Shown: positions 19,165 to 33,891 of the stretch, piece by piece
How positions within the stretch are numbered: position 1 is the stretch's first letter
How the letters are laid out: each line of letters opens with the position of its first letter
Assembly (NCBI GenBank): GCA_021809435.1
Contig: JAKBAD010000002.1
Coordinates: 62,001 to 126,000 of the forward strand
DNA length: 64,000 bases
Source of the DNA: Pseudomonadota bacterium
GTDB lineage: Bacteria; Pseudomonadota; Alphaproteobacteria; Acetobacterales; Acetobacteraceae
Reading direction: 5' to 3'
The notes under the pieces: model-generated
Database searches by the model: none
What the model was told of the DNA's origin: nothing
Seen by the model: the letters and a program-made list of their open reading frames with translations, nothing else
Made by a program: the position numbers and the translations under genes

Positions 19165-19490
19165 GAGCGGTCTCCTGGGGGTTGAAGCACCGAGAGGGTG
19201 CGAAAGGCGGCCGTATCAAAGACGCAAAAAATGGTCGGAGCGTGCAGCACGGCACTCTGATCGAGCTTACCTCACGCGGAACACGAGCCATGCTCGCGAC
19301 CACTCCCCTTGTCTTTGTTGCTTCAAGATTACACAAACCATTAAGGATTTTGCATTGAATTTATCGAACCAGCGGCGAGCCTTCACCATAGCCATGATGA
19401 AAGATAAGGCATGACGCGGTGCACACAGATTAAACCGCAGGCAAACCAAGATGGCTTGGATCACGTGGCGGGCTTTGCTACAAGCATGTC
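19165..19490. other. Divergent promoter region without a gene
   Basis: This 326-base gap separates the leftward NCS1 permease operon from the rightward M20 deacylase gene and must hold both promoters. Its middle part is clearly AT-richer than the surroundings (about 19320-19400). I see no credible coding frame, RNA gene or strong palindrome. Confidence 0.5.
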
Positions 19491-20624
19491 ATGCCCAACA
19501 CCGTTGAAATGCTGGCGGCGCTTGCCGCTTTCCCCACCATCAGCGCCGACAGTAACGAAGCCCTGATCCGCTTCGCCGCGCAAGCGATTACCCAGGCGGG
19601 CGGGCGGATTGAAAATCTTGCTGGTTCGGTAAAGGGAAAATTCAACCTCATGGCCAGCTTCGGTCCCGTCGCGGGGGCGGGTATCGTGCTGTCTGGCCAT
19701 AGTGATGTGGTGCCCGTGGCGGGGCAAAACTGGCACTCCGCCCCCTTCTCCTTAACCGAGCGCGAAGGGCGGCTGCATGCCCGCGGCGCCTCTGACATGA
19801 AGGGGTTTCTGGCCGCCATGCTCACCGCCGCCGCGCGCTGCGAGGTGGCCAAACTCACGCGCCCCCTGCATCTTATTTTTTCATATGACGAGGAAATCGG
19901 CTGTGTTGGCGTGCGAGATCTGCTCGCGCGGCTGGCGGCGGAAAGGTTTGTGGCCCAGGGGGTCATCATCGGCGAGCCGACCGAGGGGCGGGTGATCACG
20001 GGCCATAAGGGTAAAATCGCCGGCTGCCTGTGCTGCCGGGGCCGCGCCGCCCACTCGGCCAACCCGGCGCTGGGGTGCAACGCCATCATGCTGGCCGCCG
20101 ATATGCTGAGCGAGATGCGCGCCCTGCAAACCGAATTGATGCAAGGCCCCCGCGATGATGCCTACCCGTTCCCCTTCACCAGCCTGCATGCCGGGCGCAT
20201 CAAGGGCGGCGTGGCGCTCAACATTGTGCCCGATGCCTGCGAGATCGAATTCGAGCTGCGTCATCTGGCCGGCACCGATACCGATGCCCTGCTGGCGCGC
20301 CTGCGGGCGGCGGGGGCGCGAATCGGCGCGGCCTCCAACGGCGGCACGGTAACGCTGGAGGTCACCAACCACTATCCAGGCCTCGAGACCCCGCGCGGCG
20401 CCGCCATCACACAAATCGCCCTGGCGGCGGCGGGGCGCGATGAAACCGGCAAGATCGGCTTTGGCACCGAGGCCGGGCTGTTCGCCGAAAGCCTGGGGCT
20501 GGAAACCGTGATTTGCGGCCCCGGCAGCATAGACCGCGCGCATAAAGCCGATGAATATGTCACGCGCGATGAGCTGGCCGCGTGCGATGCGTTTCTCGAC
20601 CGGATCATCGCCACCCTGACCTGA
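19491..20624 (+). CDS. M20 family metallopeptidase, acetylornithine deacetylase-like
   Basis: This 377-residue protein is a dizinc M20 amidohydrolase close to ArgE. It shows the first metal site in LSGHSDVVPVAGQNW, the bridging aspartate in ARGASDMKGF and the catalytic glutamate pair in YDEEIGCVGV. The dimerisation domain follows in the middle third. ArgE removes acetyl from N-acetylornithine, but location in a nitrogen-catabolism cluster makes another N-acyl amine substrate equally possible. It ends three bases before the 3' end of the convergent LysR gene. Confidence 0.88.
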   Translation: MPNTVEMLAALAAFPTISADSNEALIRFAAQAITQAGGRIENLAGSVKGKFNLMASFGPVAGAGIVLSGHSDVVPVAGQNWHSAPFSLTEREGRLHARGASDMKGFLAAMLTAAARCEVAKLTRPLHLIFSYDEEIGCVGVRDLLARLAAERFVAQGVIIGEPTEGRVITGHKGKIAGCLCCRGRAAHSANPALGCNAIMLAADMLSEMRALQTELMQGPRDDAYPFPFTSLHAGRIKGGVALNIVPDACEIEFELRHLAGTDTDALLARLRAAGARIGAASNGGTVTLEVTNHYPGLETPRGAAITQIALAAAGRDETGKIGFGTEAGLFAESLGLETVICGPGSIDRAHKADEYVTRDELAACDAFLDRIIATLT

Positions 20625-20627
20625 CCC

Positions 20628-21545
20628 TCAGCACGTGCCTGGCAGCGGCTTACCCTCCAGCAATTCCCGGCACAGCTCTATAAACGCCTCGGCGGTGGGG
20701 GTGCGGCGCATGCCGCGAAACAGCGCGATGCCGTAAACCAGTGGACGGAGCGAATCCTCGAGCGCCAGATAAGATAATTTCCGGCCATCGAGGGTGGAGA
20801 GATTGCGCGGCCGGGCATTGGCGAGACTATACCCCTCGCCACGCCCGACAAGGCTGCGAATGACATCGATATAGCCATAGCGCCCGGCAATATTCGGGTT
20901 CACCCCGGCCTGGCGGAATAGCGAGAGAAAATAATCGCGGCTCATGGGCAGATCGAGCAGCAAAAAATTATCCTCGGCCAGTTCGCGCAGCATCACCGAG
21001 CGGCGGCGCGCGAACGGGTGCGCGGTGCCGACATAAGCATAAGGCTGCACGGGCGCGAGCGGCAAAAACTCAAAATCAGGCGGAATGGCCAGATCGTAAG
21101 TCAGCAGCAAGGCAATCCGCCCCGCGCGCAAATGCTCAAACAACTCGATCTGGCTGCCCGCGATCGCGGCGGCGCGCGCCGCCTCATGCCGGCGCCGAAA
21201 CTGGCTGAGCAATTCTGGCGCCACCAGGGGAAATAACGTCGAGAGGCAGCCAACCTCCAGCGGTCCGGCCACGCGCGCCGAGATCTCGAGCGCCGAATTT
21301 TCCACCTCCTCGGCCTGCAGCAGCAGCGCCCGCGCCTCGCGCAGAAAACGCTGCCCCTCGGCGGTGAGCGAGAGCCCCTGGGCATGATGGCGAATGAAGA
21401 GCTGAATGCCATAGGCGTCCTCGAGCGCGGTAATGGCCGAGGAAATGGAGGGCTGGGAAATATTCACCCGCTCCGAGGCCAGCGTGATGCTGCCGGTCTC
21501 GGCGGTGGCGACAAAATAAGCGATCTGCTTGAGGGTAAAACGCAT
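20628..21545 (-). CDS. LysR family transcriptional regulator
   Basis: This 305-residue regulator has the LysR DNA-binding domain (LKQIAYFVATAETGSITLAS, then NISQPSISSAITALE) and an effector domain. It resembles the regulators in the CbbR/NAC-like half of the family only loosely. It is divergent from the DUF1028 gene with a 94-base gap, and probably controls that gene and perhaps the deacylase or the permease operon. Confidence 0.9.
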   Translation of the reverse strand: MRFTLKQIAYFVATAETGSITLASERVNISQPSISSAITALEDAYGIQLFIRHHAQGLSLTAEGQRFLREARALLLQAEEVENSALEISARVAGPLEVGCLSTLFPLVAPELLSQFRRRHEAARAAAIAGSQIELFEHLRAGRIALLLTYDLAIPPDFEFLPLAPVQPYAYVGTAHPFARRRSVMLRELAEDNFLLLDLPMSRDYFLSLFRQAGVNPNIAGRYGYIDVIRSLVGRGEGYSLANARPRNLSTLDGRKLSYLALEDSLRPLVYGIALFRGMRRTPTAEAFIELCRELLEGKPLPGTC

Positions 21546-21639
21546 GGATTAGGGGTTTCCGAAGCCAAGCCTTGGCAGATTATGTTTTACAGAGCCACCG
21601 CCAAAGGCAACATGAAAATACCAAAAAGGAGTGCCGCCC

Positions 21640-22317
21640 ATGACCTTTTCCCTCATCGCGCGTTGCCCGCGCACCGGCCAGTTCGCCGTGGGCGTCACCT
21701 CGTCATCGCCCGCTGTCGGCGCGCGCTGCGCCTTTGCCCGCGCGGGTCTGGGGGCGGCGACCAGCCAAAACATCACCGACCCGCGGTTGGGCCCTGGCCT
21801 GCTCGATGCCCTGGCCAACACCCACACGGCCGAGGCCGCTCTGGCGCGGGTGCTGGCCCAAGCCCCTCACCCCGGCTACCGCCAGCTCACCGTGCTGGGC
21901 GCCAGCGGCCCGGGGGCGGCATGGTCGGGCGCCCATACGCTTGGCGTGCACGCCCAAGCGGTGGGCGAGCATGCGGTCTCGGCGGGCAATCTGCTCGCCA
22001 CGGCCCGCGTGCCCGGCGAGGTGGTGGCGGCATTCGCGGCCACCGACCCCGAGACCGAACTCGGCGCGCGGGTGATTGGCGCCTTGCAAGCCGGGTTGGC
22101 GGCGGGGGGCGAGGCTGGGCCCATCCGCTCGGCCGGGCTGCTTGTGGTAGCCGCCCAAGCCTGGCCGCTGGCCGATTTGCGGGTGGACTGGCACGACGAG
22201 CCGCTGACCGAACTGGCCCGACTGTGGGCGCTGTGGGCACCGCAGATGCACGACTACGTCACCCGCGCGCTCACCCCCGCCGCCGCGCCCGCCTATGGTG
22301 TGCCCGGCGACGAATAA
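21640..22317 (+). CDS. DUF1028 family protein
   Basis: This 225-residue protein begins TFSLIARCPRTGQFAVGVTS, the conserved opening of DUF1028 proteins, an Ntn-hydrolase-like family of unknown reaction often encoded near RidA proteins, M20 amidases and amino acid transporters. The ATG at 21640 follows AAGGAG by 8 bases; a GTG at 21631 overlaps that site and is less likely. The convergent RidA gene ends eight bases away. Confidence 0.87.
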   Translation: MTFSLIARCPRTGQFAVGVTSSSPAVGARCAFARAGLGAATSQNITDPRLGPGLLDALANTHTAEAALARVLAQAPHPGYRQLTVLGASGPGAAWSGAHTLGVHAQAVGEHAVSAGNLLATARVPGEVVAAFAATDPETELGARVIGALQAGLAAGGEAGPIRSAGLLVVAAQAWPLADLRVDWHDEPLTELARLWALWAPQMHDYVTRALTPAAAPAYGVPGDE

Positions 22318-22325
22318 CCCCCCGC

Positions 22326-22733
22326 TCACGGCAGCTCGGCGATGATATCCACCTCCACCAGCCATTCCGGCCGGGCCAGCGCCACCACCACCAGCCCGGT
22401 GAACACCGGATAAACGCCCTTCATCCACCGCCCCAGCACGCGATAAACCGGCTCGCGGTGGCGAATATCGGTGAGATAGACGGTCACCTTGCAAATGGTC
22501 TCCAGCCCCGCGCCACATTCGCCGAGCAGCAGCGTGATGTTCGCCATCACCTTCTCGGCCTGGCCGCTGGGGTCGCCCACCGCCACGTTCTCGCGCGTGT
22601 CGAGATCCTGTGCCACCTGGCCGCGCAGATAAATGGTCTTGCCCGCGACCACCGCCTGGCAAAGGTCATTGTCGAGCCGCTGCTCGGGGTAGGTATCTTT
22701 GGTGTTGAATGGGCGGATGCGCTTATGGATCAT
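22326..22733 (-). CDS. RidA family deaminase
   Basis: This 135-residue protein belongs to the RidA/YjgF/Rid family, which hydrolyses reactive enamine/imine intermediates to ketoacids and ammonia. It has the late ARPEWLVEVDIIAELP segment with the arginine that binds the substrate carboxylate. The ATG at 22733 has GAGG at proper spacing; the ATG at 22739 directly abuts it. It matches the presence of amine-oxidising enzymes nearby. Confidence 0.88.
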   Translation of the reverse strand: MIHKRIRPFNTKDTYPEQRLDNDLCQAVVAGKTIYLRGQVAQDLDTRENVAVGDPSGQAEKVMANITLLLGECGAGLETICKVTVYLTDIRHREPVYRVLGRWMKGVYPVFTGLVVVALARPEWLVEVDIIAELP

Positions 22734-22833
22734 GGTCATCCTCGTTTGCGGTTATACACTCCGGCCTATGGCCAAACCCAATGTGGCACTCGCCCATAAT
22801 TTCATAAAGCGGATACTGACGGCGATCGGCTTC

Positions 22834-22847
22834 GATTTTTCAAAATC
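22834..22847. promoter_or_regulatory. AT-rich palindrome upstream of the glycosyltransferase/radical SAM operon
   Basis: GATTTT-TC-AAAATC is a perfect palindrome in the 230-base gap before the five-gene operon. It lies in the AT-richest part of the gap and could be an operator or part of the promoter. Confidence 0.3.
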
Positions 22848-22965
22848 AACAGCCTGTTTATTAGGCACCCGTTAGGTACCAAAAGGGGCGAACCGGCGAG
22901 AGACTATGTTCCGCATTGTGCCGAACCCGCACGGTGCTGGAAATCCGCCACATGGCGGGAGGATC

Positions 22966-23925
22966 ATGCCATCATGGGCCGTTAACATGGCGAGGATCTG
23001 GTTACCCGCCCCCCCGCCGTTCCGCCCTTGGCAAAAGGCCGAAAGCCGCGTTAATCTCGCCGGTAAAATGACCATGCCTCAGCATCGCTCCCGCGCCCCG
23101 GCGCCGCGTTTCGTGTTCGCGGTGGCGGGGGCCACGCATGTGGCTGGGCTGACCCCGGCATTGCAGGCGCTAAAGCGCGCCACCGCCGCCGAAATTATTG
23201 TCGTGCAGCGCGCCGGCGACCCGCCCGCGGCGCACGACAACCGGTTAAACGCCGCCCCGCCACCGGGCCTTGGCGCCCACCAGGCGGCCATATGGCTAAA
23301 AACCCGTCTGCACCGGCTGGTGGGGCTTGAGCGGCCCTTTTGCTACCTCGACTCCGACGTGCTGGCGCTCGGCCCTGAAATCGAGGCGATCTTTGCCCAG
23401 ACCACCGGCCCCGTGGCCTTTGCCCCCGACCACGCCACGCTCGACCAGTTTTCGCCCTATGCGGTGCGCTGCGGCTGCACCGGAGCCTGCGGCCATTTGC
23501 GCGAAGCGCTGTTTTGCACCTGGGGGCTCGATGTGCCCGGTGATTTCAGGCTGTGGAATGGCGGCGTGTTCGTGGCGCGGCCGGGCGCCGAGGCGCTGCT
23601 CGATGACTGGCACGCGCGGGCCGCCGCGCTGTTTGACGCCCCCTATTGGCGCACGCGCGACCAGGCCGCCCTGGCCGCGGCCCTGTGGCGCGCGGGCGCC
23701 CAAAACCTGCCCACCCTGGCGCCGCGTTTCAATTTCATTCTCGATTGCTGCCGGGGCCTATCAGCCGCCGCGCGCACAGCCACGCCCGCCGCCCGCCTGC
23801 CCGTGAGCCCGGCCCACCTGCCCCTGCCCGATGCCGCGGCCGTGCATCTCATCAACCACGGCGTCGGCCGCACTGGCTGGCCGCACTGGGACCATCTCGC
23901 CCATTATCTGGAGCTTGCGCCATGA
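22966..23925 (+). CDS. GT-A fold glycosyltransferase with four-cysteine motif
   Basis: This 319-residue protein is a GT-A type, nucleotide-sugar-dependent transferase, loosely GT8-like. It shows YLDSDVLAL with the metal-binding D129-S-D131, WNGGVF (W197-F202), DQAALAAALW (from D232), FNFILD and a late HLINHG. Unusually, VRCGCTGAC and a later cysteine (C169, C171, C175, C184) form a cluster resembling a metal site. The ATG at 22966 follows GGGAGG; starts at 22906, 23068 and 23074 are possible and the conserved fold begins near 23098. Its stop overlaps the start of the next glycosyltransferase gene. The cysteine motif recurs in the radical SAM protein of the same operon. Confidence 0.82.
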   Translation: MPSWAVNMARIWLPAPPPFRPWQKAESRVNLAGKMTMPQHRSRAPAPRFVFAVAGATHVAGLTPALQALKRATAAEIIVVQRAGDPPAAHDNRLNAAPPPGLGAHQAAIWLKTRLHRLVGLERPFCYLDSDVLALGPEIEAIFAQTTGPVAFAPDHATLDQFSPYAVRCGCTGACGHLREALFCTWGLDVPGDFRLWNGGVFVARPGAEALLDDWHARAAALFDAPYWRTRDQAALAAALWRAGAQNLPTLAPRFNFILDCCRGLSAAARTATPAARLPVSPAHLPLPDAAAVHLINHGVGRTGWPHWDHLAHYLELAP

Positions 23926-26921
23926 GCCCGCTACCCCCTGTTCATACCATGTGGCTGGGCGAGCGGCTTTCGGGCCTCGAGCGTCTGACCCTCGCCTCCT
24001 ACGTCGCCCAGGGCCATGCGGTTTCGCTCTGGGCCTATGATGACCTCACCGGCCAAACCCCGCCCGGCGTGCGCCTGCGCGATGCCGAGGCGGTCTTTCC
24101 CCGCGCGCGCATTCAGCCCAAGCGCCACGCCGAGGCGGGGGTGGGCGTGGGGCGGGGCAGTGTGGGGGGCGTGTTTTCCGACCTGTTCCGCTACCGGGTG
24201 CTCCATGAGCACGGCGGCATCTGGGCTGATATGGATGTCACCGCCCTCAGGCCCCATCTGTTCGATGGCCCCTATGCTTTCCGGCCGCACCGGCTGGGCG
24301 CGGTGGCCAGCATCATGCAGGCCCCCAAGGGCAGCCCGTTTCTCGCCTGGGCCTATGAGCAAACCGAGGCCATCGCCGGCCCCGAAACACCCTGGCTGCT
24401 GCCCATCCACATTCTCAACGAGGGCATCAGGCGGTTCGGGCTCGAGAGCGCGATTGTCGGGGGCATGAGCAATCTCGACCTGTGGAGCGAAATCAAGCCC
24501 TTCATCGAGGGGCGCGCGGCGTTTCCGGGGCCCTGGTTCGCCGTGCATTGGATGAACGAGCTCTGGCGCACGCTGGCGGCGCAACAGGGCTGGCTCGATG
24601 GCCGCCACCTCACCGCGCTCACGCTCGATAAAAACGCCCCGCCGCCCGGCTCGACCCTGCACGAACTCTATCGCGCCCATGGCCTGGCCGATCTCCACGA
24701 ACCCTACCCCACCGCCTTGGCCAAACCCGTGGCCCTGGCGCCCGAAGCCCCGCGCGTGGCCAAACGGGTGGATATGCTGCTGCCCGCCCTGGCCCCCGGC
24801 GGCGCCGAGCGCATTGTGCTCGACACACTGGCCAGCCTGCCGCCCGGCACCACCGCCCGCCTGCACGTGCTGGGCACCAGCCCGCACGACCTGCCCGCGC
24901 CGCCGCGCGTGTTGGTGCACCGGCCACAAGGCCCGCGCGCCGCACGGCTGAAGGCCATTGCCGTTGAGCTGCTGGAGCAGGGCGGCACGCTCTACACGCA
25001 TCTCATCCGCCATGAGGATCTCGCCCTGCTCTGGGCCCAGGGCGTGCCCACCGTGCCGGTGCTGCACAATGCCCGCCCTGGCTGGTCAGACCCGCCCGCG
25101 TGCTACAATACCAGCCTGGTGCCCTTTGTGGTGGCCTGCGCCGACGCCGTGGCCGCCCAGGCCACCGAGAGCGGCCTGACCCGGCCCCCGCTGACGCTGC
25201 GCCACGAACTGCCCGGCCAAGCCGACCCCGCCGCCCTGGCCGAGGCGCGGGCGGCGCTGCGGGCCCGCCATGGCATTGACCCTGGCGTCGTGCTCATTGG
25301 CATGGTGGGGCAGTTTAAACTGCAAAAAGCCTATGCGCGCGCGCCGCTGGTGCTGGCCGCGGTGAAGGCGGCGGGCGTGAACGCCCGGCTGATGGTGCTG
25401 GGCGGCTGGGACCACGCCTGGGGCTCGGGCCGCGCGGCCTATGAGGCCTTCATGCGCGCCGCCGTAGAAGCGGGCGTGGTGGCCGACATTATTTGCCCCG
25501 GCGCGGTCACGCCCGCCCAGCCCTATTATGCCGCGTTCGATGTGCTGCTCAACTGCTCGGCCTATGAGGGCTATTCCATCGCCATGCTCGAGGCCCAGCA
25601 GGCCGGTTGCCCGGTGGTGGCCAGCCAGGTGGGCGGTGCCGGCGAAATGCCGGGGGATCTGGCGCTGATCGACCCGCCCGACGATATCGGCGCCTATGCC
25701 AGCGCCATTATCGAGCGCGCCACCGGCGGCGCGCGCACCCTGCCGCCCAAACCCTATGCGCCCGGCCTGCTGCCCGCGCTCTGGCGGCTGTTGCCCGCCG
25801 TGCCCCGCGCGCCCGATGAAACCCACACCGGCGCGCTCATCCTCACGCAATCGCTTGAGCGCGGCGGCCCGGCCAGCGCGCTCACCCGCCTGGCGGGCGC
25901 CCTGCCGGTGGCGCGCAAACTGCTGGTGGGCACATTTGGCGCCGTGCTGGAACCACACGCCCACGCCCTGCGCGCCGCCGGCACGCCGCTGCTGGCCGGC
26001 CCCAGCCAAGACGTAACCGCCCAGGCCGAGGCGGTGCTGGCATGGGTGCGGCGCTACCGGCCGCGCACGCTTTGCTTTTGGTCGGTGGCGCCCGAGCTGA
26101 AGCTGCTGCTCGCCAAGCTGTTCGAGACCTCGGCGCTGCGGCTGGTGGATGTCAGCCCCGGCCCGATGCTGTTTGACGAGCTGGCCGCCGCCCAGCCCTT
26201 CGCGCGGCGTCTCGCCTTCTCGGCGGCGCAATATTTCGCGCGGTTAGACGCCTTTGTAAGCCTGCACAAAACCGGCGTGGCCCCCAAGCCGGCGCGCAAC
26301 ATCGTGGCGCCGCTGGGCGTGCCAGACCCGCCGGCCTTCGTGCCCCTGCCCGCTCCCTGGGCGCTGCCCGCGCGCGGCTTTGCGCCTGAGCTGGTGGTTG
26401 GCACCATTTGCCGGCTGGTGCCCGATAAGCATATCGAGCATCTGCTGCTGGTGGCCAGGCGCCTGCGCAAGCTGGTGCCCGGCGCCGTGCTGATGGTGGT
26501 GGGCGGGCCCGATGGCCAGTCTGTGCCCTACGCCCAGGATATAATGCGCCAAGCCGACGCCGAACCGGGCATAAGGTTTGTGGGCCCGTGCGACGACCCG
26601 CTGCCCTATTTGCGGCTGTTCAGGGTGTTTTTGCTCACCGGCCGGCGCCAGGGCTGCCCCAATGCCTCGCTGGAGGCCATGGCCATGGGCTTGCCCGTGG
26701 TCGCCGAGCCCGATGGCGGGGTGGCCGAGCAGGTGGTGAATGGCGAGACCGGCTATCTGGCCGCCACGCCCGAAGCCATGGCCCGGCGCGTGGCCGCGCT
26801 GTTGCGCGATGAGCCCCTGCGCGCCCGGCTCGGGCAGCAGGCGCGCCTACATTGTCGGCGCAATTTTTCCATTGATACAATGGCCGAACGATATGATAAG
26901 ATATTGTTCATGAGCGGCTGA
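23922..26921 (+). CDS. Triple-domain glycosyltransferase (GT32-like plus two GT4-like domains)
   Basis: This 999-residue protein fuses three transferase modules. Residues 1-270 are a GT32-like GT-A domain (HTMWLGERLSGLERLTLASY and ADMDV with D103-M-D105). Residues about 283-625 form a GT-B domain starting MLLPALAPGGAERIVLDTL and ending in a GT4 donor-site region (EAQQAGCPVVASQVGG). Residues about 635-999 form a second GT-B domain (LTQSLERGGPASALTRLAG to NASLEAMAMGLPVVAEPDGG). The ATG at 23922 overlaps the previous stop (ATGA). It could build a short glycan of up to three linkages; acceptor unknown. No membrane segment is evident. Confidence 0.88.
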   Translation: MSPLPPVHTMWLGERLSGLERLTLASYVAQGHAVSLWAYDDLTGQTPPGVRLRDAEAVFPRARIQPKRHAEAGVGVGRGSVGGVFSDLFRYRVLHEHGGIWADMDVTALRPHLFDGPYAFRPHRLGAVASIMQAPKGSPFLAWAYEQTEAIAGPETPWLLPIHILNEGIRRFGLESAIVGGMSNLDLWSEIKPFIEGRAAFPGPWFAVHWMNELWRTLAAQQGWLDGRHLTALTLDKNAPPPGSTLHELYRAHGLADLHEPYPTALAKPVALAPEAPRVAKRVDMLLPALAPGGAERIVLDTLASLPPGTTARLHVLGTSPHDLPAPPRVLVHRPQGPRAARLKAIAVELLEQGGTLYTHLIRHEDLALLWAQGVPTVPVLHNARPGWSDPPACYNTSLVPFVVACADAVAAQATESGLTRPPLTLRHELPGQADPAALAEARAALRARHGIDPGVVLIGMVGQFKLQKAYARAPLVLAAVKAAGVNARLMVLGGWDHAWGSGRAAYEAFMRAAVEAGVVADIICPGAVTPAQPYYAAFDVLLNCSAYEGYSIAMLEAQQAGCPVVASQVGGAGEMPGDLALIDPPDDIGAYASAIIERATGGARTLPPKPYAPGLLPALWRLLPAVPRAPDETHTGALILTQSLERGGPASALTRLAGALPVARKLLVGTFGAVLEPHAHALRAAGTPLLAGPSQDVTAQAEAVLAWVRRYRPRTLCFWSVAPELKLLLAKLFETSALRLVDVSPGPMLFDELAAAQPFARRLAFSAAQYFARLDAFVSLHKTGVAPKPARNIVAPLGVPDPPAFVPLPAPWALPARGFAPELVVGTICRLVPDKHIEHLLLVARRLRKLVPGAVLMVVGGPDGQSVPYAQDIMRQADAEPGIRFVGPCDDPLPYLRLFRVFLLTGRRQGCPNASLEAMAMGLPVVAEPDGGVAEQVVNGETGYLAATPEAMARRVAALLRDEPLRARLGQQARLHCRRNFSIDTMAERYDKILFMSG

Positions 26922-26939
26922 TCCCCGCCGGAGGATGCC

Positions 26940-27701
26940 ATGAGCGACGACAGGCCGGGTTTGAAACCTGGGGACAAAATGGGCCTGAGCCGCCGCGCGC
27001 TGCTGGGCGCGGGGTTTATGCTGCCGGTGAGCTTCGCCCACAGCGCCCGCGCCGAGGGGCCGGTGATGATGGCCTATAATGGCGAGAGCTACGAGCCTGA
27101 TAATAACGTCTCAACCACCGACCAGGGCGAGACGGGCGGGGGCGAGACGGGCGGGGGCGAGACGGGCGGCGCAACCGGCGGCGGCGGCGCGGAGTCGGCC
27201 AGCTCGGCGCTCGGCCAGTTGCAGAACATGACCAATGGCTCGGAATCGCTGAATCAGGGATTTTTTGGCGGCGGCGGCGGGCCGGATGACACCACCGTGG
27301 ACGTGACCCCGCCCGAGCCGCCAACGCCGCAGGCCGAGCCGGTGGAGCCCTCGGACGAGGATAGCGCGAACAGCGACAACGAGGACAACAACGCCCCCTA
27401 TGACGAGCCGCCCGCGCCCCCCGACGATGACAGCGGCGATGATCAGGATTTACAGAGCCAATATGACGACGCCCAGGCCGAGGCCGATGCGGCCGCCGCC
27501 GCCGCCGCCAGCGCCGCCGCCGCCTGGGCCACCGCGCGCAGCAACAGCACCACCACGCCCGATCAGTATAACCAGATCTACCAGACCTATCAGCAGGCCC
27601 AGTCGGCCGAGCAATGGGAGCGTTATAAGATCGAGCGCCTCCAGGCGGCGATCAAGTCCAAAAAGCCGGTGATTTATGTGCTCGACGGAGACGGACCATG
27701 A
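26940..27701 (+). CDS. Tat-type exported low-complexity acidic protein
   Basis: I do not recognise this 253-residue protein. The N-terminus has a twin-arginine signal (LSRRALLGAG, R18-R19, hydrophobic stretch, then HSARA). The mature part holds a GETGG repeat tract, glycine runs, a proline- and Asp/Glu-rich acidic section (about 120-175), an alanine run (about 180-200), Gln/Tyr-rich helical sequence and a C-terminus VIYVLDGDGP. GGAGG lies five bases before the ATG. It lies 18 bases after the triple glycosyltransferase and overlaps the next gene by four bases. Serine, threonine and asparagine are frequent, so it is a candidate substrate for the operon's modifying enzymes; that is inference. 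Confidence 0.75.
   Translation: MSDDRPGLKPGDKMGLSRRALLGAGFMLPVSFAHSARAEGPVMMAYNGESYEPDNNVSTTDQGETGGGETGGGETGGATGGGGAESASSALGQLQNMTNGSESLNQGFFGGGGGPDDTTVDVTPPEPPTPQAEPVEPSDEDSANSDNEDNNAPYDEPPAPPDDDSGDDQDLQSQYDDAQAEADAAAAAAASAAAAWATARSNSTTTPDQYNQIYQTYQQAQSAEQWERYKIERLQAAIKSKKPVIYVLDGDGP
27125..27169 (+). repeat. Three perfect 15-bp tandem repeats in coding sequence
   Basis: GGGCGAGACGGGCGG occurs three times head to tail without a mismatch and encodes a GETGG-type repeat in the exported protein. Perfect identity suggests recent expansion and a site able to vary in copy number without shifting frame. Confidence 0.85.
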
Positions 27702-28711
27702 GCCGCGCGCTCAGGGCCTCGGCGCTGCTGGGCGCGCTGCTGGGCGCACCCATGGCCGCCTGGGCGCAGGCGCAAACCGGCTGCCCGGCGCATTCGGTTG
27801 CCTATAAAATCGAGGAAACCGCCAGCGCCACCATCGTGCATTGCCATTGCGCCACGGGGTTCGCGGCCCAGGGTGGGCAATGCCTGCCCCCCGCGCCGCC
27901 GCCCGGCGCGCCGCGCATCAGCTGCGCGGTGGCCGCGCAGCGCATCGCGCGCGATCTCGCGCAAATTCAGCACCAGCGCGAGCTGGCGACCCAGAACCAG
28001 GCCCAATTCGCCGATGCCCGCAACCTGGGCGGCAAGGCCGCGAAAGACATGCTGACCGCCGCCGGCGAGCTGACCATCGGTGTCGCCGCCGCCGAGGATG
28101 AGCACGAGACGGAGGCGATCTCCGCGCTGACGGACCAGACCGCGCAGCTCGAGGCGCAGATTCCCACCATCTCGGACAAGGACGAGCTAGAGACCGCGAT
28201 GAGCCATTTGCGGCAGCTCGACAGCCAGCTCGACGCCGTGCAGGACAATGCCGGCTTCAAGGAGCTGGTGCGCAACGGCATGGATGCGCGCGAAAGCTGG
28301 AAGCTGGGCCAGGGCGCGCTGCATGACGGCTTCACCGCCGCCGCCAGCGTGAATGACCAGATCGCCCAGCAACTTGATAACCCGCAATTCCGCCAGGCCG
28401 TGCTGGGCGAGGAGCCGGGCGAGACCAAGGATGACGCGCTCTGGGACCACAGCGCCGACGTGCTGAAGGAGCTGGTCTCGCAGACCGCCGAGCACGCCCA
28501 GTTTCTGTCTCATTACCAGGCCATCACCGGCCCGGCCATCACCTGGACGAGCTTTACCATCGACGCCGCTTATGCCGATCTTGAACTCTGGTTCGCGGCG
28601 CAAAGCGCCGATCAGGCCGACCAGAATGCCGGCCAGCTCGCCCGCGCCGCCGGGGTGCTGCAACAGACGTTCAAAACCGACATGCAGGCCCGCCAGACCT
28701 GCACGCCATGA
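27698..28711 (+). CDS. Sec-exported cysteine-containing helical protein, unknown family
   Basis: This 337-residue protein has a Sec signal peptide (to about residue 24, MAAWAQA). A short cysteine-rich segment follows, with TGCPAHS, HCHCATGFAAQGGQC, resembling an EGF-like loop, then a proline stretch and a long, mostly helical remainder rich in Ala, Gln, Asp and Glu, with a final cysteine (QTCTP). Coiled-coil or helical-bundle structure is likely. It overlaps both neighbours by four bases (ATGA). It may be a partner, chaperone or second substrate of the operon's enzymes. Similarity to TrbJ/VirB5-type helical periplasmic proteins was considered but cannot be shown. Confidence 0.75.
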   Translation: MSRALRASALLGALLGAPMAAWAQAQTGCPAHSVAYKIEETASATIVHCHCATGFAAQGGQCLPPAPPPGAPRISCAVAAQRIARDLAQIQHQRELATQNQAQFADARNLGGKAAKDMLTAAGELTIGVAAAEDEHETEAISALTDQTAQLEAQIPTISDKDELETAMSHLRQLDSQLDAVQDNAGFKELVRNGMDARESWKLGQGALHDGFTAAASVNDQIAQQLDNPQFRQAVLGEEPGETKDDALWDHSADVLKELVSQTAEHAQFLSHYQAITGPAITWTSFTIDAAYADLELWFAAQSADQADQNAGQLARAAGVLQQTFKTDMQARQTCTP

Positions 28712-30435
28712 GCATAGACGCCACAGCCTACGATGCCACGCGCGATTTCTCGCGCAAGGCCGTGCGCTCGCTGTGCTACGCGCCGCACAGCAACCTGTTT
28801 TTCGACCGCCAGGGCCGCGTGCGCGCCTGCTGCTTCAACTGGAGCGAGCCGCTCGGCAATCTCACCAGTCAAACGCTCGATGAAATCTGGTCAGGCGCGC
28901 AGGCTGCCCTGATGCGCGCGGCGCTGGAGCGCTATGAGCTGCCCGCGGGCTGCGCGTTTTGCCGCTTCCAGACCGACCAAGGCTGGATGGGCGGCGCCAA
29001 GATGCGCCAGTTCGACCATTTCGCGGTAACCGAAACCCCGCCCCGCTGGCCGGGCCAGATGGAGTTTTCCCTCTCCAACGCCTGCAATATCGAGTGCGCC
29101 ATGTGCGATGGCGAGCATTCCTCGGCCATCCGCGCCCACCGCGAGGGGCTGCCCGCCCAGCCGCGGCTCTATTCCGATGAGATGCTCGAGCAGTTCCGCC
29201 CTTATCTGCCCCATCTCACCCAGGCGAAATTTCTTGGCGGCGAGCCGTTTCTCGCGACCGAGAATTTCAAGATCTGGGAGATGATGATCGAGGAAGGACC
29301 GCAAGGCACCTGCCACGCCACCACCAACGGCACGCAATATAACGCCCGCATCGAGCGCGTGCTGGAGCGGCTGCGCTTTGGCTTCGCCCTCTCGCTCGAT
29401 GGCGCGCGCCGCGAAACCATAGAGCGCGTGCGCTACGGCGCCAAATATGACGAGGTGATGCGCAATGTGCGGCGCTTTATCGCCTACACACGCGCGCGGG
29501 GCACCGGCTTCACGCTCACCTATTGCCTGATGCGCCCCAACTGGGCCGAATTTGGCGAATTCTGCGCCCTGGCCGACTCGCTGGGCGTGCGGGCTTCCCT
29601 CAACACCGTGCTGCGCCCGCCCGGCTATTCGCTCTACACCCTGCCCGCCAGCGAATTGCGGCGCGTGGTGACGGCGCTTGAGCGCCAGGCGCCGGAGCTG
29701 GAAACCAGCCTGACACTCAATAAGTCCGTATGGTTTGACGAGCTGGAGCGCCTGCGCCGCAAATGCGTTGCCATGGAAGCCGCGACCGCGCCGCCGCCGC
29801 CCCTGCCCCGCGTGCACACCGCACCGCTCACCACGCCGCACCACGCCATTGTGCTGGGCATAGAAACCCCCGCCCAGGCCAGCCATGCCTGCATCAATCT
29901 GCACATGTTACGCAGCTTCTCGCACACAACCTTGGTGGCCGCCGCGGGCGGGTGCGAAAGCCCCGACGCCCAGGTCACCGCCACTGATCCGCTGTCGCTG
30001 CGCACTGGCCTGTTCGATCTGCTGCCCAGCCACATTGAACGCGCGCTCTATATTGGCGCCGACCAGCCCCCGCCCCGCCACGACATAGACCGCGCGCTGG
30101 AACGCTTCGCACCGCCGCTCGCCTTTGCCCGCGCGGGCCGGATGATTGACGAGGCCAGCGCGACCATGGTGCGCTGCGGCTGCACCGGCGCCTCGTGCCC
30201 CCATGCGCGCGAGGCGCTGCTGTGCCTGTTGGGCGCCGATGTCACCGATTGCGCCTGGGCGCTGCCCGACCCTTCCCGCTTCGCCGCCACCCGCGCCGCC
30301 CTACCCCTGCTGGCCGCCTGGCGAGACTATGCCCAACAGGCGGCGGCCAACAACTATTGGGCCGATCCCGTTCTAGCCGGGCTCATCGCCATGCTCTGGC
30401 ACCGGGGGCTGGCGCACCATCCCCCCCTGGCGTAA
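28708..30435 (+). CDS. Radical SAM protein with N-terminal SPASM/twitch-like region and C-terminal pseudo-glycosyltransferase domain
   Basis: This 575-residue protein has three parts. Residues about 20-95 look like a SPASM/twitch cluster region placed at the N-terminus (CYAPHSNLFFDRQGRVRACC, LGNLTSQTLDEIW, then CAFC). Residues about 110-350 are a radical SAM barrel with the CX3CX2C cluster C126-C130-C133 in NACNIECAMC and GGEPF. Residues about 390-575 match the neighbouring GT-A protein at 22966: Y448-I-G-A-D452 for its Y-L-D-S-D, and C490-G-C492-T-G-A-S-C497 with C506 for its cysteine motif. The first DxD aspartate and WNGG are lost, so this domain is probably not catalytic. It is the last gene of the operon. 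Confidence 0.87.
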   Translation: MSIDATAYDATRDFSRKAVRSLCYAPHSNLFFDRQGRVRACCFNWSEPLGNLTSQTLDEIWSGAQAALMRAALERYELPAGCAFCRFQTDQGWMGGAKMRQFDHFAVTETPPRWPGQMEFSLSNACNIECAMCDGEHSSAIRAHREGLPAQPRLYSDEMLEQFRPYLPHLTQAKFLGGEPFLATENFKIWEMMIEEGPQGTCHATTNGTQYNARIERVLERLRFGFALSLDGARRETIERVRYGAKYDEVMRNVRRFIAYTRARGTGFTLTYCLMRPNWAEFGEFCALADSLGVRASLNTVLRPPGYSLYTLPASELRRVVTALERQAPELETSLTLNKSVWFDELERLRRKCVAMEAATAPPPPLPRVHTAPLTTPHHAIVLGIETPAQASHACINLHMLRSFSHTTLVAAAGGCESPDAQVTATDPLSLRTGLFDLLPSHIERALYIGADQPPPRHDIDRALERFAPPLAFARAGRMIDEASATMVRCGCTGASCPHAREALLCLLGADVTDCAWALPDPSRFAATRAALPLLAAWRDYAQQAAANNYWADPVLAGLIAMLWHRGLAHHPPLA

Positions 30436-30608
30436 CGAAGAAAGACCTTATTTTCCGAATATGCCGCGTCATTGGATCGCCCAACACGGCACAACCAAAC
30501 GCCTATGGCAGGCCGATTGCCGGCCTCCCACACCACCAGACGGGGCATGACCGCAAACCCAGCCAATCTTGGCCACGCCAGGGCAAGCGGCGCGTTCATC
30601 CGGGCACA

Positions 30609-30641
30609 AAAAAGCCGGGCGTACACCACGCCCGGCTTTTT
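30609..30641. terminator. Bidirectional terminator
   Basis: AAAAAGCCGGGCG and CGCCCGGCTTTTT form a perfect 13-bp stem with a 7-base loop, giving a T-run on both strands. It lies between the 3' ends of the radical SAM operon and the phasin gene and serves both. Confidence 0.92.
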
Positions 30642-30659
30642 CGCGCTCATAAGCGCGGC

Positions 30660-31085
30660 TTATTTGTCGAGCAGCGCCTTCATCTCGCTCATCGCCTCCG
30701 AGAAGCGGGTATTGAGCTTGGCAATCGCCTCGGCGTTGGATTTCTGAATCAAATCGCCCAGCTCGCGGGTATTGGCCACCGCGTTTTCATAGGCTTTCTT
30801 CAGCAATTCGGTCTGCTTGGCGGCGCGCCCGGTGGGCGAGGCGGTGGTCGAGAGCTCCTTCAAATTCTCGGTCAACCCGGCCATGGTCGATTGCATGATT
30901 TCCATATGCCGCCGCGCCACCGCCTGCGCGCCTTCCAGCGCCACCCGGTTGGCTTCCGAAAGCGCATCGAGATTGCGCTTATAAGCCGCCATCACCGCCT
31001 GCACATCCGGCACGGAGGGCATTTTCATATCGCCCAGCAATTTGGAAACATCTAACTCCGGCATGAATTTATTCTTATCGTTCAT
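30660..31085 (-). CDS. Phasin family protein
   Basis: This 141-residue, almost wholly helical protein has the phasin pattern: a short N-terminal part, then VPDVQAVMAAYKRNLDALSE, ARRHMEIMQSTMAGL and a C-terminal amphipathic helix LNTRFSEAMSEMKALLD. Phasins coat polyhydroxyalkanoate granules, so the host probably stores PHA, which agrees with the 3-oxoacid CoA-transferase elsewhere in the window. AAGGAG precedes the ATG. No PHA synthase gene is within the window. Confidence 0.9.
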   Translation of the reverse strand: MNDKNKFMPELDVSKLLGDMKMPSVPDVQAVMAAYKRNLDALSEANRVALEGAQAVARRHMEIMQSTMAGLTENLKELSTTASPTGRAAKQTELLKKAYENAVANTRELGDLIQKSNAEAIAKLNTRFSEAMSEMKALLDK

Positions 31086-31125
31086 CGAACCCGCTCCTTG
31101 CCTTTTTGGTTTTAAATTTAATCTC

Positions 31126-31755
31126 TCAAGCCTCAGACGGCACCGTCTCGCCCGCGGCGGCGGCCTCGTTGTCTTCTACCATGCCCGCCTCAGCGGTGGG
31201 AAGAAATCGGCCAGCCAAATTTTCCGCCTGGGTCAGCGCCTTGTCCACCGCCGCCATGGTGTGGGCCAAATCCTCGCTCTCATCGCGCTCCCAGGCATAA
31301 ACGCCATAAAGCCACACGCCCAGCAGCCCGCGTTTCTTCACCGCCCCCTGCGCGCCCGTGGCGTCAATCCCCGCGCCTTCCAGCAACCACCCCATCGAGG
31401 CAATGCTCATCTCCATCAGCGCGAAGGCCAGCGGCGGGTTCAGCGGCAAGGCGCGCAGCAGCGCCAGCACACCGCCCCGGTTGGCCTGCAAATAATCAAA
31501 CCGCTTGAGGATGATCTCAAACAGCCGCTCGCGCGTGGTTCCCTCGCCATCCAGCCCGGCCAGCGCGGCCGCATCGGCGGTCCGGCCAAACTCCGCCAAA
31601 ATCGCGCCATTACACGAAAATTCCCGCCGCGCGCGGGCCAAATCCAGCCCCGCCGCCCGCGCCGCCGCCGCCGGGCTCACCGCCCGCCAGCCTTTCTCGG
31701 CCGCCAGCCCAAACGCCGCCGCCACCAACCGGGCCCGAAACGCCTCCTCGCTCAT
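31126..31755 (-). CDS. TetR-like regulator (COQ9-like fold possible)
   Basis: This 209-residue protein has an N-terminal helix-turn-helix-like region (AAFGLAAEKGWRAVSPAAAA) and a helical C-terminal part (LFEIILKRFDYLQANRGGVL). TetR family assignment is likely; COQ9, a lipid-binding ubiquinone-synthesis protein with the same fold, is the alternative. The ATG at 31755 is preferred to a GTG at 31770 because GGGAGAGGG precedes it. It lies 11 bases after the gamma-carbonic anhydrase gene and 40 bases before the phasin gene, all leftward, so it could regulate the phasin. Confidence 0.75.
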   Translation of the reverse strand: MSEEAFRARLVAAAFGLAAEKGWRAVSPAAAARAAGLDLARARREFSCNGAILAEFGRTADAAALAGLDGEGTTRERLFEIILKRFDYLQANRGGVLALLRALPLNPPLAFALMEMSIASMGWLLEGAGIDATGAQGAVKKRGLLGVWLYGVYAWERDESEDLAHTMAAVDKALTQAENLAGRFLPTAEAGMVEDNEAAAAGETVPSEA

Positions 31756-31766
31756 CGCCCTCTCCC

Positions 31767-32321
31767 TCACACTGGCTTCAGGCCGGCGCGGAACTGCTCG
31801 GCCAGCCAGAGATAATGCGGCACCGTCTCATCCCAGCCCGCGCGCTCCTCATCGCTCATCACCCGCGCCAACTTGGCGGGCGCCCCCATCCACAACTCCT
31901 GGCGCTTAATGCGTTTGCCCGGCCCCAGCAGCCCTCTGGCCGCCAGCAACCCGGCCTCCTCAATCACCGCGCCGTCCAGCACCGTCGCCCCCATGCCCAC
32001 AAAGGCGCGGTTCTCCAGCCGGCAGGCATGCACAATCGCGCCATGCCCCACGGTCACGTCATCGCCGATCATCGCCGGGTTATCGCCATGGTCCACATGC
32101 ACCACCGTGCCATCCTGAATGTTCGAGCGCGCCCCCACGATCACCGGGTTGGTATCGCCGCGCAGCACGCAATTAAACCAGATATTCGCCCCCGGCCCAA
32201 TCCGCACATCGCCAATCAGCACGGCGGTCGGCGCCACCCAGGCGGTGGGGTCAATAACCGGGCGCTTATCGCCCAGCGCATAAAGCAGCCCGCCCGCGCG
32301 GTTCGATTCAGATAAGCTCAT
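31767..32321 (-). CDS. Gamma-carbonic anhydrase family protein
   Basis: This 184-residue left-handed beta-helix protein shows hexapeptide repeats (AVLIGDVRIGPGANIWFNC) and the histidines expected for the trimer-interface zinc site (VVHVDHGDNP and VGHGAIVHAC). It is close to YrdA/PaaY-type members, many of which have not been shown to hydrate CO2. Its start overlaps the argC stop by four bases, so the two are coupled. Confidence 0.9.
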   Translation of the reverse strand: MSLSESNRAGGLLYALGDKRPVIDPTAWVAPTAVLIGDVRIGPGANIWFNCVLRGDTNPVIVGARSNIQDGTVVHVDHGDNPAMIGDDVTVGHGAIVHACRLENRAFVGMGATVLDGAVIEEAGLLAARGLLGPGKRIKRQELWMGAPAKLARVMSDEERAGWDETVPHYLWLAEQFRAGLKPV

Positions 32322-33217
32322 TCACTCCGCCCCAACATCAGGTTCAAATTCTGCACCGCCGCGCCCGAGGCGCCCTTGCCCAGATTATCCAGCCTGGCAA
32401 TCAGCACCGCCTGCGTCCCCGCCTCGTTGGCGGCCACGAAAATCTCCAGCCGGTTGCTGCCGTTCAGCGCCTCGGGGGTCAAATTCTCCCCCCACAGCCC
32501 GCGCGGCACCACCACGCCGTTCTCGCCATAAAACGCCTCATAAAGCGCTGCCAGCCGCGCGGGCGTCACGCCCAGCGCGTCCAGATGCAACGGCACCGAC
32601 ACCAGCATCCCTTGCGCGAAATGCCCGACCGAAGGCACAAAGACCGGCGCCCGCGCCAGCCCGCTATAAGCCATGATCTCAGGCAGATGCTTATGCTTGA
32701 GCCCAAGCGCGTAAAGCTCAAAAGCCGGCCCGCCCGCCCGCTCATGCTCGGCGATCATCGCCTTACCGCCACCTGAATAGCCCGACACCGCGTTGATGCT
32801 CAGCGCCGCCTCCGCCGCCAAAATCCCCGCCTCGCGCAGCGGGCGCAGCAGCGCGATCGCCCCGGTGGCATAACAGCCCGGATTAGCCACCCGCGCCGCG
32901 CCGGCAATCAACGCCGCCTGCCCCGGCGCCATCTCGGCAAAGCCATAAACCCAGCCCGGCGCCACGCGGTGCGCGGTCGAGGCGTCCAAAATCCGCGCCC
33001 CCGCCGGCGCCAGCGCCACCGCCTCGCGCGCCGCATCATCGGGCAGGCACAAAATTGTTACCTCCGCCTCGCCCATGGCGCGCTGGCGAGCCTTGGGGTC
33101 TTTGCGGTCATGGTCGGCCAGCTCAATCAGGCTAAATCCGCCCGCATCCCGCAGCCGTCCGGCAATGCCAAGACCGGTGGTTCCGGCCTGCCCATCAATA
33201 AAAATCTTCGTACCCAT
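32318..33217 (-). CDS. argC: N-acetyl-gamma-glutamyl-phosphate reductase, short type
   Basis: This 299-residue enzyme reduces N-acetylglutamyl phosphate to the semialdehyde in arginine synthesis. It starts KIFIDGQAGTTGLGIAGRL (NADP-binding) and has the active-site cysteine in ANPGCYATGAIAL; INAVSGYSGGGKAM follows. The length and FIDGQAGTTG opening match the short, second ArgC type common in alphaproteobacteria. It heads a leftward group with gamma-carbonic anhydrase and the TetR-like gene. Confidence 0.95.
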   Translation of the reverse strand: MGTKIFIDGQAGTTGLGIAGRLRDAGGFSLIELADHDRKDPKARQRAMGEAEVTILCLPDDAAREAVALAPAGARILDASTAHRVAPGWVYGFAEMAPGQAALIAGAARVANPGCYATGAIALLRPLREAGILAAEAALSINAVSGYSGGGKAMIAEHERAGGPAFELYALGLKHKHLPEIMAYSGLARAPVFVPSVGHFAQGMLVSVPLHLDALGVTPARLAALYEAFYGENGVVVPRGLWGENLTPEALNGSNRLEIFVAANEAGTQAVLIARLDNLGKGASGAAVQNLNLMLGRSE

Positions 33218-33288
33218 ACCCCTCTCTTATCATGCCCCGCCCTTCGTGCTAGGGGCGCTGCGAACTCATCAATCAGGAAGATAGCGCC

Positions 33289-33783
33289 ATGTCAGATTCC
33301 GCCGCGCCGGTCGCGCCCCTCACCCTCAACGTCCAATACACCAAGGATCTCTCCTTCGAAGTGCCCGGCGCGCCGGTCATCTTCACCTCGCTCCGCCAGC
33401 CCCCGCAGGTGAGCATCAATCTCGACGTTCAGGTGCGCAAGCTCGAAGAGAGCGCCGACGTGTTCGAAGTCACCCTGGCCATCCGCGCCGAAGGCACCGC
33501 CCCGGCCGCCAAGGACGGTGAGAAGCCGACCCCCGTGTTCATCGCCGATCTGTCTTATGCCGGCGTGTTCACCCTCTCAGGCATCCCCGAGGCTCAGCAC
33601 GAGCCGATCCTGCTCGTCGAGTGCCCGCGCCTGCTGTTCCCCTTCGCCCGCAACATCCTGGCCGATGTCACGCGTGAAGGCGGGCTGCCCCCGGTCATGC
33701 TCCAGCCCATCGATTTCGTCTCCCTCTGGCAGCAGCGCCGCGCCGCCGCCCTCGCCAACGTCCAGCCGGCCGCCAACGCGTAA
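33289..33783 (+). CDS. secB: Protein-export chaperone SecB
   Basis: This 164-residue cytosolic chaperone keeps preproteins unfolded and hands them to SecA. YTKDLSFEVPGAP, VTREGGLPPVMLQPIDF and the C-terminal WQQRRAAAL are characteristic. AGGAAG lies upstream of the ATG. A hairpin with a T-rich left arm follows the gene, and argC is divergent. Confidence 0.96.
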   Translation: MSDSAAPVAPLTLNVQYTKDLSFEVPGAPVIFTSLRQPPQVSINLDVQVRKLEESADVFEVTLAIRAEGTAPAAKDGEKPTPVFIADLSYAGVFTLSGIPEAQHEPILLVECPRLLFPFARNILADVTREGGLPPVMLQPIDFVSLWQQRRAAALANVQPAANA

Positions 33784-33802
33784 GCCAGCGGCCCGGAATT
33801 TC

Positions 33803-33831
33803 GTGGACCCTTTTGGCAAAAAAGGGTCCAC
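33803..33831. terminator. Hairpin after secB
   Basis: GTGGACCCTTTT and AAAAGGGTCCAC form a perfect 12-bp stem with a 5-base loop. It ends secB transcripts or is a small palindromic element; the similar hairpin after uvrB (36048-36075) has the same GTGG-CCC-TTTT design. Confidence 0.65.
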
Positions 33832-33891
33832 CCCCCAAAAATTCACCGCCCCCATTGAAGCCAGCCGCCACCCGCGCCTAATTTCAGCGCC

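Follow-up and report, generated by a model that had tools for sequence, protein, structure and literature searches.

Serine-rich repeat adhesins are O-glycosylated in the cytoplasm by transferases that are encoded beside the exported low-complexity protein and include GT4 enzymes; accessory SecA2/SecY2 and a GtfA/GtfB pair are the marks of these systems. Here we describe an operon of five genes, g1 to g5, in a 64,000-nucleotide stretch (the window) of contig JAKBAD010000002.1 from an Acetobacteraceae bacterium of the genus Acidocella. Like the adhesin systems, it has transferase genes, with GT4 enzymes among their products, beside the gene of a predicted exported low-complexity protein; it differs from them in its predicted use of twin-arginine translocation (Tat) instead of accessory Sec, in its radical S-adenosylmethionine (SAM) enzyme, and in its glycosyltransferase (GT) domains of GT8- and GT32-like type. 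The operon consists of two linked units, a core of g2-g3-g4 and an optional pair, g1 and g5. Since relatives of the enzymes lie together in glycan-type loci of other phyla, its most likely product would be an unusual sugar chain, destined either for an exported protein or for the cell surface.

With the radical SAM systems that produce ribosomally synthesised and post-translationally modified peptides (RiPPs; sactipeptides and similar), the operon shares a SPASM-type gene overlapping the gene of an exported protein. It does not qualify as such a system, having no short leader precursor (g3 and g4 are 253 and 337 amino acids long) and no match to a RiPP recognition element (RRE) or PqqD domain, and g3 also lacks the cysteine. 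The text available of a paper on RiPP clusters of Bacteroidales (PMC10352776) does not describe this gene set. The initial annotation of the locus knew of no named system of this kind, and we likewise found none with this gene set in the openly licensed literature.

Loci that are mostly from Bacteroidota, and for which we found no published name, combine GT8/GT32-like and radical SAM genes, and share with the operon relatives of g1 and of the g2 N-terminal domain (g2-N) beside relatives of g5. They differ in having g1/g2-N fusions, often several radical SAM genes, and amidotransferase, UbiA or methyltransferase partners; searches of these loci gave neither g3 nor g4, and their g2-N-like proteins lack the GT4 pair. 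At the level of single proteins, g5 resembles NCBIfam family NF033640 (N_Twi_rSAM), in which an N-terminal twitch/SPASM region is followed by the radical SAM domain. This family is the best NCBIfam match of g5 (residues 21-332, 147.3 bits), but the score lies below the curated cut-off of 170, making g5 a relative and not a member, and g5 additionally carries a C-terminal pseudo-GT tail. The kinds of enzyme in the operon are all known; the novelty lies in how they are combined, in the fusion of a radical SAM enzyme with a pseudo-GT, and in the link with predicted Tat- and Sec-exported proteins.

The operon and its products

The open reading frames (ORFs) of the window give five open rightward genes in the block 22966-30435. 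ATGA overlaps join g1 to g2 at 23922, g3 to g4 at 27698 and g4 to g5 at 28708. The stop codon of g2 (26919-26921) is followed by an 18-base gap (26922-26939) and the ATG of g3 at 26940; the stop codon of g5 is at 30433-30435. Beyond it lies a hairpin (30609-30641) with a 14-bp stem, an A-run on one side and a T-run on the other, which folds with -24.2 kcal/mol (z -6.8; 0 of 200 shuffles were equally good), and then a convergent gene (31085-30660) that reads by eye as phasin-like. The sequence thus bears out the five rightward genes, three overlaps, single gap and bidirectional terminator of the initial annotation. The start at 22966 was rejected: the first in-frame starts of the g1 orthologues in two other Acidocella genomes, G211 and G068, align near 23068, and by this alignment a start at about 23068 is most likely. 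A simple terminator scan did not list the hairpin (4 terminator-like sites, compared with 5.7 in shuffles), and a simple promoter scan was uninformative, with 3 consensus matches and none of them 5' of g1.

Between the window and G211, the ratio of nonsynonymous to synonymous substitution rates (dN/dS) is 0.22, 0.22, 0.26, 0.32 and 0.31 for g1 to g5, respectively, and all five genes are therefore under purifying selection. Given these low values and the conservation of gene order in G211 and G068, the arrangement is not due to chance, and the five-gene operon is real. Its features are as follows.

23068-23925, forward strand: g1, GT-A glycosyltransferase, GT8-like (motifs and a homologue at locus L068; start from orthologues)
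23922-26921, forward strand: g2, triple glycosyltransferase of 999 amino acids (Pfam, alignment, motif listing)
26940-27701, forward strand: g3, putative Tat-exported low-complexity protein (twin-arginine motif, no Cys, dN/dS 0.26)
27698-28711, forward strand: g4, predicted Sec-exported protein with an EGF-like mini-domain (Cys pattern, sub-threshold matches, low-confidence model)
28708-30435, forward strand: g5, radical SAM protein (Pfam above cut-off, invariant cysteines, model)
29860-30435, forward strand: pseudo-GT domain of g5 (DNA match to g1 in its own genome, alignment, dN/dS)
30609-30641, no strand: two-way intrinsic terminator separating g5 from the convergent gene 31085-30660

The g1 protein contains a DxD motif (YLDSD), a WNGG motif and a cysteine motif, CxC...CxHLREA..C. 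The CxC part is common among relatives, each of its cysteines being kept in 33 of 34 aligned sequences; the rest of the cysteine motif is present in Acidocella and partly in L068. g1 itself has no Pfam match, and none of the four Acidocella members matches the GT8 profile (PF01501), which the L068 homologue passes with 27.5 bits (cut-off 24.3). A search of the sequences of solved structures with a g1 profile returned nothing at E 0.1. g2 consists of a GT32-like N-domain followed by two GT4 domains. The N-domain passes PF04488 (Gly_transf_sug) marginally, with 23.5 bits against a cut-off of 23, and has a DMD at residues 103-105, of which D103 and D105 are invariant in five aligned orthologues. 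The GT4 domains correspond to two stretches above the PF00534/PF13692 cut-offs; the GT4 family motif, EX7E, occurs in the first and QX7E in the second, in 5/5 orthologues. The transferases of the operon look soluble.

Tat substrates are recognised by the motif [ST]RRxxL followed by a hydrophobic stretch, and this twin-arginine motif was read in all five g3 orthologues. A conserved core, QLQNMTNGSE...TP, stands within otherwise variable low-complexity sequence, and the C-terminus looks helical and ends in VLD. The orthologues in genomes G219 and G201 are almost equally diverged from that of the window (37-38% identity); the core motif N-x-T-N-G-S-E is present in G219, where g1 and g5 also occur, and lost in G201, from which both genes are missing. 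Modification of g3 through a cysteine thioether was ruled out, since the protein is cysteine-free in 5/5 orthologues.

g4 begins with a signal sequence and a mini-domain of four cysteines (C29-C62), whose pattern C-x-C-x2-G-[YF]-x...-C is kept in 5/5 orthologues. Pfam matches of the mini-domain are to epidermal growth factor (EGF) and TIL families only and all lie below the cut-off (best E 0.0024). A comparison with the Protein Data Bank (PDB) listed 19 sequences at E 0.1-7.6, which are of MSP1, factor X and nidogen, with the matches falling at EGF regions as read by eye. By its pattern and these sub-threshold matches, the mini-domain appears to be EGF-like. It is followed by a helical region, in place of which G219 has a different one, so that only the signal sequence and the four-cysteine domain are clearly kept there. 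The model of g4 is of low confidence, with a mean predicted local distance difference test (pLDDT) score of 43.5 and a small β region at residues 33-63; g4 as a whole gave chance-level matches only to the sequences of solved structures. Directly 3' of g4 in G219, and overlapping it by ATGA, lies the gene of a further exported protein (L042:8825-9610), propeller-like by eye and without a Pfam match, that has no counterpart in the operon of the window.

On sequence grounds g5 is assigned to the radical SAM superfamily, SPASM/twitch type. It passes the Pfam cut-offs for Radical_SAM (PF04055; 47.5 bits, cut-off 29.5) and, at its N-terminus, for SPASM (PF13186; 34.6 bits, cut-off 21.5). The cluster motif CxxxCxxC (C126, C130, C133) and the SPASM/twitch cysteines C23, C41, C82 and C85 are invariant in 49 aligned sequences. 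No PqqD/RRE peptide-binding domain was found by Pfam, the matches being Radical_SAM, SPASM and Fer4_12 only. The C-terminus of g5 is a degenerate copy of g1, as seen from a DNA match within its own genome and from the alignment: DxD and WNGG are lost and VRCGCTG..C.HAREAL.C is kept. This tail is missing from the G219 orthologue, and dN/dS is 0.46 from residue 361 onward versus 0.23 in the radical SAM part. Fusion of a radical SAM enzyme with a degenerate copy of an adjacent transferase looks unusual; we are not aware of a published example, though no search aimed at it was made. The families named in the initial annotation hold, with refinements: the triple transferase resolves into GT32-like and two GT4 domains, the Cys-containing part of g4 into an EGF-like mini-domain, and the SPASM/twitch region of g5 is N-terminal, the C-terminus being the g1 copy.

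The structural model of g5 has pLDDT values above 90 over most of residues 1-360. Its top Foldseek match is BlsE (PDB 7vob) from blasticidin S biosynthesis, an enzyme acting on a sugar nucleoside, with TM-scores of 0.50 by target and 0.30 by query; the sequence identity is only 18%, and nothing indicates that the two enzymes catalyse the same reaction. Further matches are viperin, SuiB, sactipeptide enzymes, anSME and SkfB, and the deoxysugar enzyme DesII appears later. Comparison with the sequences of solved structures gave one weak match (7wzv, E 0.0017).

Occurrence in Acidocella and in other phyla

We searched 38 Acidocella genomes, including that of the window (G000, 2.65 Mb). g2 is present in six (G000, G211, G068, G201, G219, G216). 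In all six it is adjoined by g3, and in five of them g4 follows; the sixth contig, that of G216, ends inside g3. Matches to g3 occur in seven genomes, the six with g2 and a fragment in G187, and full-length g3 was seen solely beside g2. g4 is found in five genomes, with one match each and always in the operon locus; a search with its N-domain at E up to 0.1 returned these five strongly and 12 genomes weakly (E 0.004-0.09). g1 is present in four genomes, which are also the ones with strong matches to g5 (at E up to 0.001 g5 has some match in 10/38, the additional six at 1e-13 or weaker). g1 and g5 are thus jointly present in four of the six g2-bearing genomes and jointly absent from G201 and G216. 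It is from these counts that we distinguish the g2-g3-g4 core from the optional pair.

The gene order g1-g2-g3-g4-g5 is common to the window, G211 and G068. G219 has g5-g1-g2-g3-g4 and G201 has g2-g3-g4; in G216, g2 is followed by g3, within which the contig stops. The co-conservation of all five genes expected by the initial annotation therefore applies to G211 and G068 with their order kept, and fails for g1 and g5 in G201 and G216. In G211 the operon sits elsewhere in the genome, the RidA-LysR block being on another contig. A decayed C-terminal g3 fragment in G187 (L170:8673-8894) shares a 17-kb stretch with a transposase-like gene; it is a trace of loss, or of a cassette that has moved, in an operon-free genome.

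Scans of the wider family drew 200-249 genomes, not all of those available, and strong matches to g5, g4 and g2 were confined to Acidocella: 2/200 for g5 (any match, 41/200), 2/200 for g4, and 3/249 for g2 at E 1e-100. Among 385 genomes of the class, g4 was convincing in the window's genome, the only other match being one of 33 residues (E 0.009), and no g4 match was found among 72,556 plasmid records.

For relatives of g5 further afield, named genomes were scanned with the g5 profile via two short peptide patterns, so that the sample is not an unbiased one. The scan yielded 79 loci, of which 71 were counted after dropping eight without an ORF reaching 150 bits with the g5 model. Many flanks stop at contig ends, so that counts of absence are lower bounds; partner genes (AsnB, UbiA, methyltransferase, PhyH, Wzt) were sought with one query each at E 1e-15. 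A g1-like transferase is present in 32/71 loci and a g2-N-like one in 24/71, three of each from Acidocella. Asparagine-synthase-like amidotransferases were found in 16 loci, UbiA in 21, methyltransferases in 19, PhyH in 12, and Wzt-like ABC proteins in seven, a count that may include other ABC proteins. g3 and g4 matched in the three Acidocella loci only. At least two g5-type ORFs occur in 41 loci, 23 of them with g1. Outside Acidocella, g1-like genes are found in Bacteroidota, Acidobacteriota and Armatimonadota, and g2-N-like genes in Bacteroidota and one Delongbacteria contig. g1 and g2-N are fused in 10 ORFs, and of 33 g1-like ORFs, measured stop to stop, 16 overlap a radical SAM ORF on the same strand or are no more than 20 bases away from one. 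In Bacteroidota loci such as L089, L091 and L098, where the g1-like domain is fused to a GT32-like domain, an insertion of ~75-165 residues splits the g1-like domain just after CxC.

Alignment and tree comprised 49 sequences, the four from Acidocella and 45 of 120 relatives that passed the cut. g5 members linked to g1, a label assigned by hand, occur in both of the groups that a fully supported split separates, those of Acidocella in one and those of Bacteroidota, Acidobacteriota and Armatimonadota in the other; 8 changes of the label are needed, compared with a shuffle mean of 13.6.

Possible acceptors and the substrate of g5

The reading we tentatively prefer, while giving it rather less than an even chance, is a glycosylation-and-export cassette in which sugar is placed on a co-encoded exported protein and g5 acts with g1 on the chain. 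Starting from the observed operon, families, co-occurrence and selection, we infer the acceptor protein, the order of steps and a sugar as g5 substrate as follows. Cytoplasmic g2, with its GT32-like and two GT4 domains, would build a short sugar chain on a co-encoded exported protein, most likely g3, which would be glycosylated before leaving through Tat. g4 would leave through Sec and meet g3 outside. The optional g1 and g5 would add or alter one sugar of the chain by radical chemistry. A cytoplasmic protein acceptor is slightly favoured over a surface glycan because the transferases look soluble and are tied strictly to two exported proteins, and modification before export because the predicted Tat route of g3 suits it. 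A sugar is favoured as substrate of g5 because the g1-g5 pair is optional, the tail is GT-derived, and the link to transferases crosses phyla. That the enzymes' relatives sit in glycan-type loci, and that G068 has a polysaccharide locus nearby, also makes a sugar or glycan the likelier substrate of the radical chemistry. We counted on the same side the place of BlsE as best fold match, the listing of DesII, and the lack of a PqqD/RRE domain in g5.

Several results weigh against this cassette. Direct evidence that g3 or g4 is glycosylated is lacking, and N-x-S/T motifs are not significantly enriched in the two proteins. The fold matches of g5 are distant (TM-score ≤0.31 by query and ≤0.63 by target among the 50 listed) and include the peptide-modifying SuiB, anSME and SkfB. 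Neither g1 nor g2 is present in the retrieved flanks of the closest g5 relatives outside the genus (L061, L062, L064, L065). In one of these loci, the Verrucomicrobiota L062, a low-complexity gene rich in Pro, Thr and Ala (L062:2-1075) overlaps the g5 relative by ATGA, which argues for a protein substrate; its product, the N-terminus of which lies off the contig, has no Pfam match and only chance-level matches to the sequences of solved structures. The g3 motif contrast between G219 and G201 likewise favours a protein as g5 substrate, each of these two points being a single example. Finally, contig 17 of G068 carries a polysaccharide locus (L193:339-9675) at a distance of 3.6 kb past g5, so that the acceptor may be a glycan made outside the operon.

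The points about L062 and the g3 core, together with the ATGA overlap of g4 and g5, are what an alternative can draw on in which a residue of g3 (or g4) is the target of g5 and that protein also receives sugar from the transferases. We consider it unlikely. g1 and g5 are missing from two of the six genomes that keep g2 and g3, the cysteine-free g3 could not form a cysteine thioether, g5 has no RRE match, many of its distant relatives accompany glycan enzymes, and the motif contrast rests on one genome. The initial annotation had proposed a radical-modified and glycosylated exported product. A co-conserved operon with dedicated exported proteins agrees with that proposal; their persistence does not depend on the radical SAM gene, since G201 keeps g2-g3-g4, and G216 g2 and the start of g3, without g1 or g5. 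A radical-modified protein is possible but less supported.

Almost as probable as the preferred cassette is a pathway in which the enzymes synthesise or modify a glycan of the cell surface, such as a lipopolysaccharide branch or an exopolysaccharide. In that case g3 and g4 would not be glycosylated and would serve in the periplasm or at the surface to anchor, chaperone or present the glycan. In other phyla, relatives of the enzymes belong to glycan-type loci in which neither g3 nor g4 was found, and a Stf0 sulphotransferase gene, confirmed by Pfam, lies divergently upstream of g2 in G201 (L041:12583-13347), as does a gene of the same sequence type, not confirmed by Pfam, in G216 (L169:6035-6913); these are the two genomes without g1 and g5. 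The G068 locus, separated from g5 by permease-like and LysR-like genes, encodes a GT8 (80.5 bits), a polysaccharide flippase (PF13440, 190 bits), two GT4 enzymes, a chain-length protein of Wzz/tyrosine-kinase type and a polymerase-like membrane protein without a Pfam match. Found in one genome of six, it supports a surface glycan and does not imply a shared pathway. In naming a polysaccharide locus as the case that would speak against it, the initial annotation pointed in a direction towards which the evidence from other phyla and from G068 now leans. On the other side, g3 and g4 are strictly tied to g2, and g3 is of Tat type. Neighbouring genes were mostly named by eye; so read, the window ORFs at 18000-36000 include no flippase, polymerase or glycan locus, and the sequence retrieved around the operon in G211, G201, G219 and G216, whose whole genomes were not searched, showed no such locus either.

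A chance gathering of five genes that has been kept as one travelling mobile cassette is very improbable. The patchy distribution (6/38 genomes), the different place of the operon in G211, and the g3 remnant near a transposase-like gene in G187 would fit it. Against it, the genes stay linked through the rearrangement in G219, all five are under purifying selection, and relatives of g1, g2-N and g5 are linked across phyla.

Within the glycosylation-and-export cassette, a more specific and rather doubtful proposal is that g5, a radical SAM enzyme with a dead-GT docking tail, works with its live GT8-like paralogue to rewrite either a sugar or the N-x-T-N-G-S-E core of the Tat-exported protein, with the EGF-like protein as partner, and that a similar enzyme trio serves other acceptors in Bacteroidota and further phyla. 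Were the cassette right, it would be a compact case of glycosylation before Tat export, and a radical SAM group that crosses phyla would be tied to specific glycosyltransferases, so that its chemistry should be sought among sugars and not peptides. The fusion with a degenerate transferase points to a possible docking role for dead transferases.

Other relatives of g5

The phage relatives of g5 are 12 records, all from Vibrio phages, with 22-24% identity in the 10 listed. The g5 relatives L064:8169-10880 and L065:9923-13384 are fused to long C-terminal regions with PAS matches. A 15-kb locus of Ilumatobacteraceae (L067:3675-14922) holds five g5-type ORFs, two of them overlapping in different frames, together with methyltransferase and PhyH matches.

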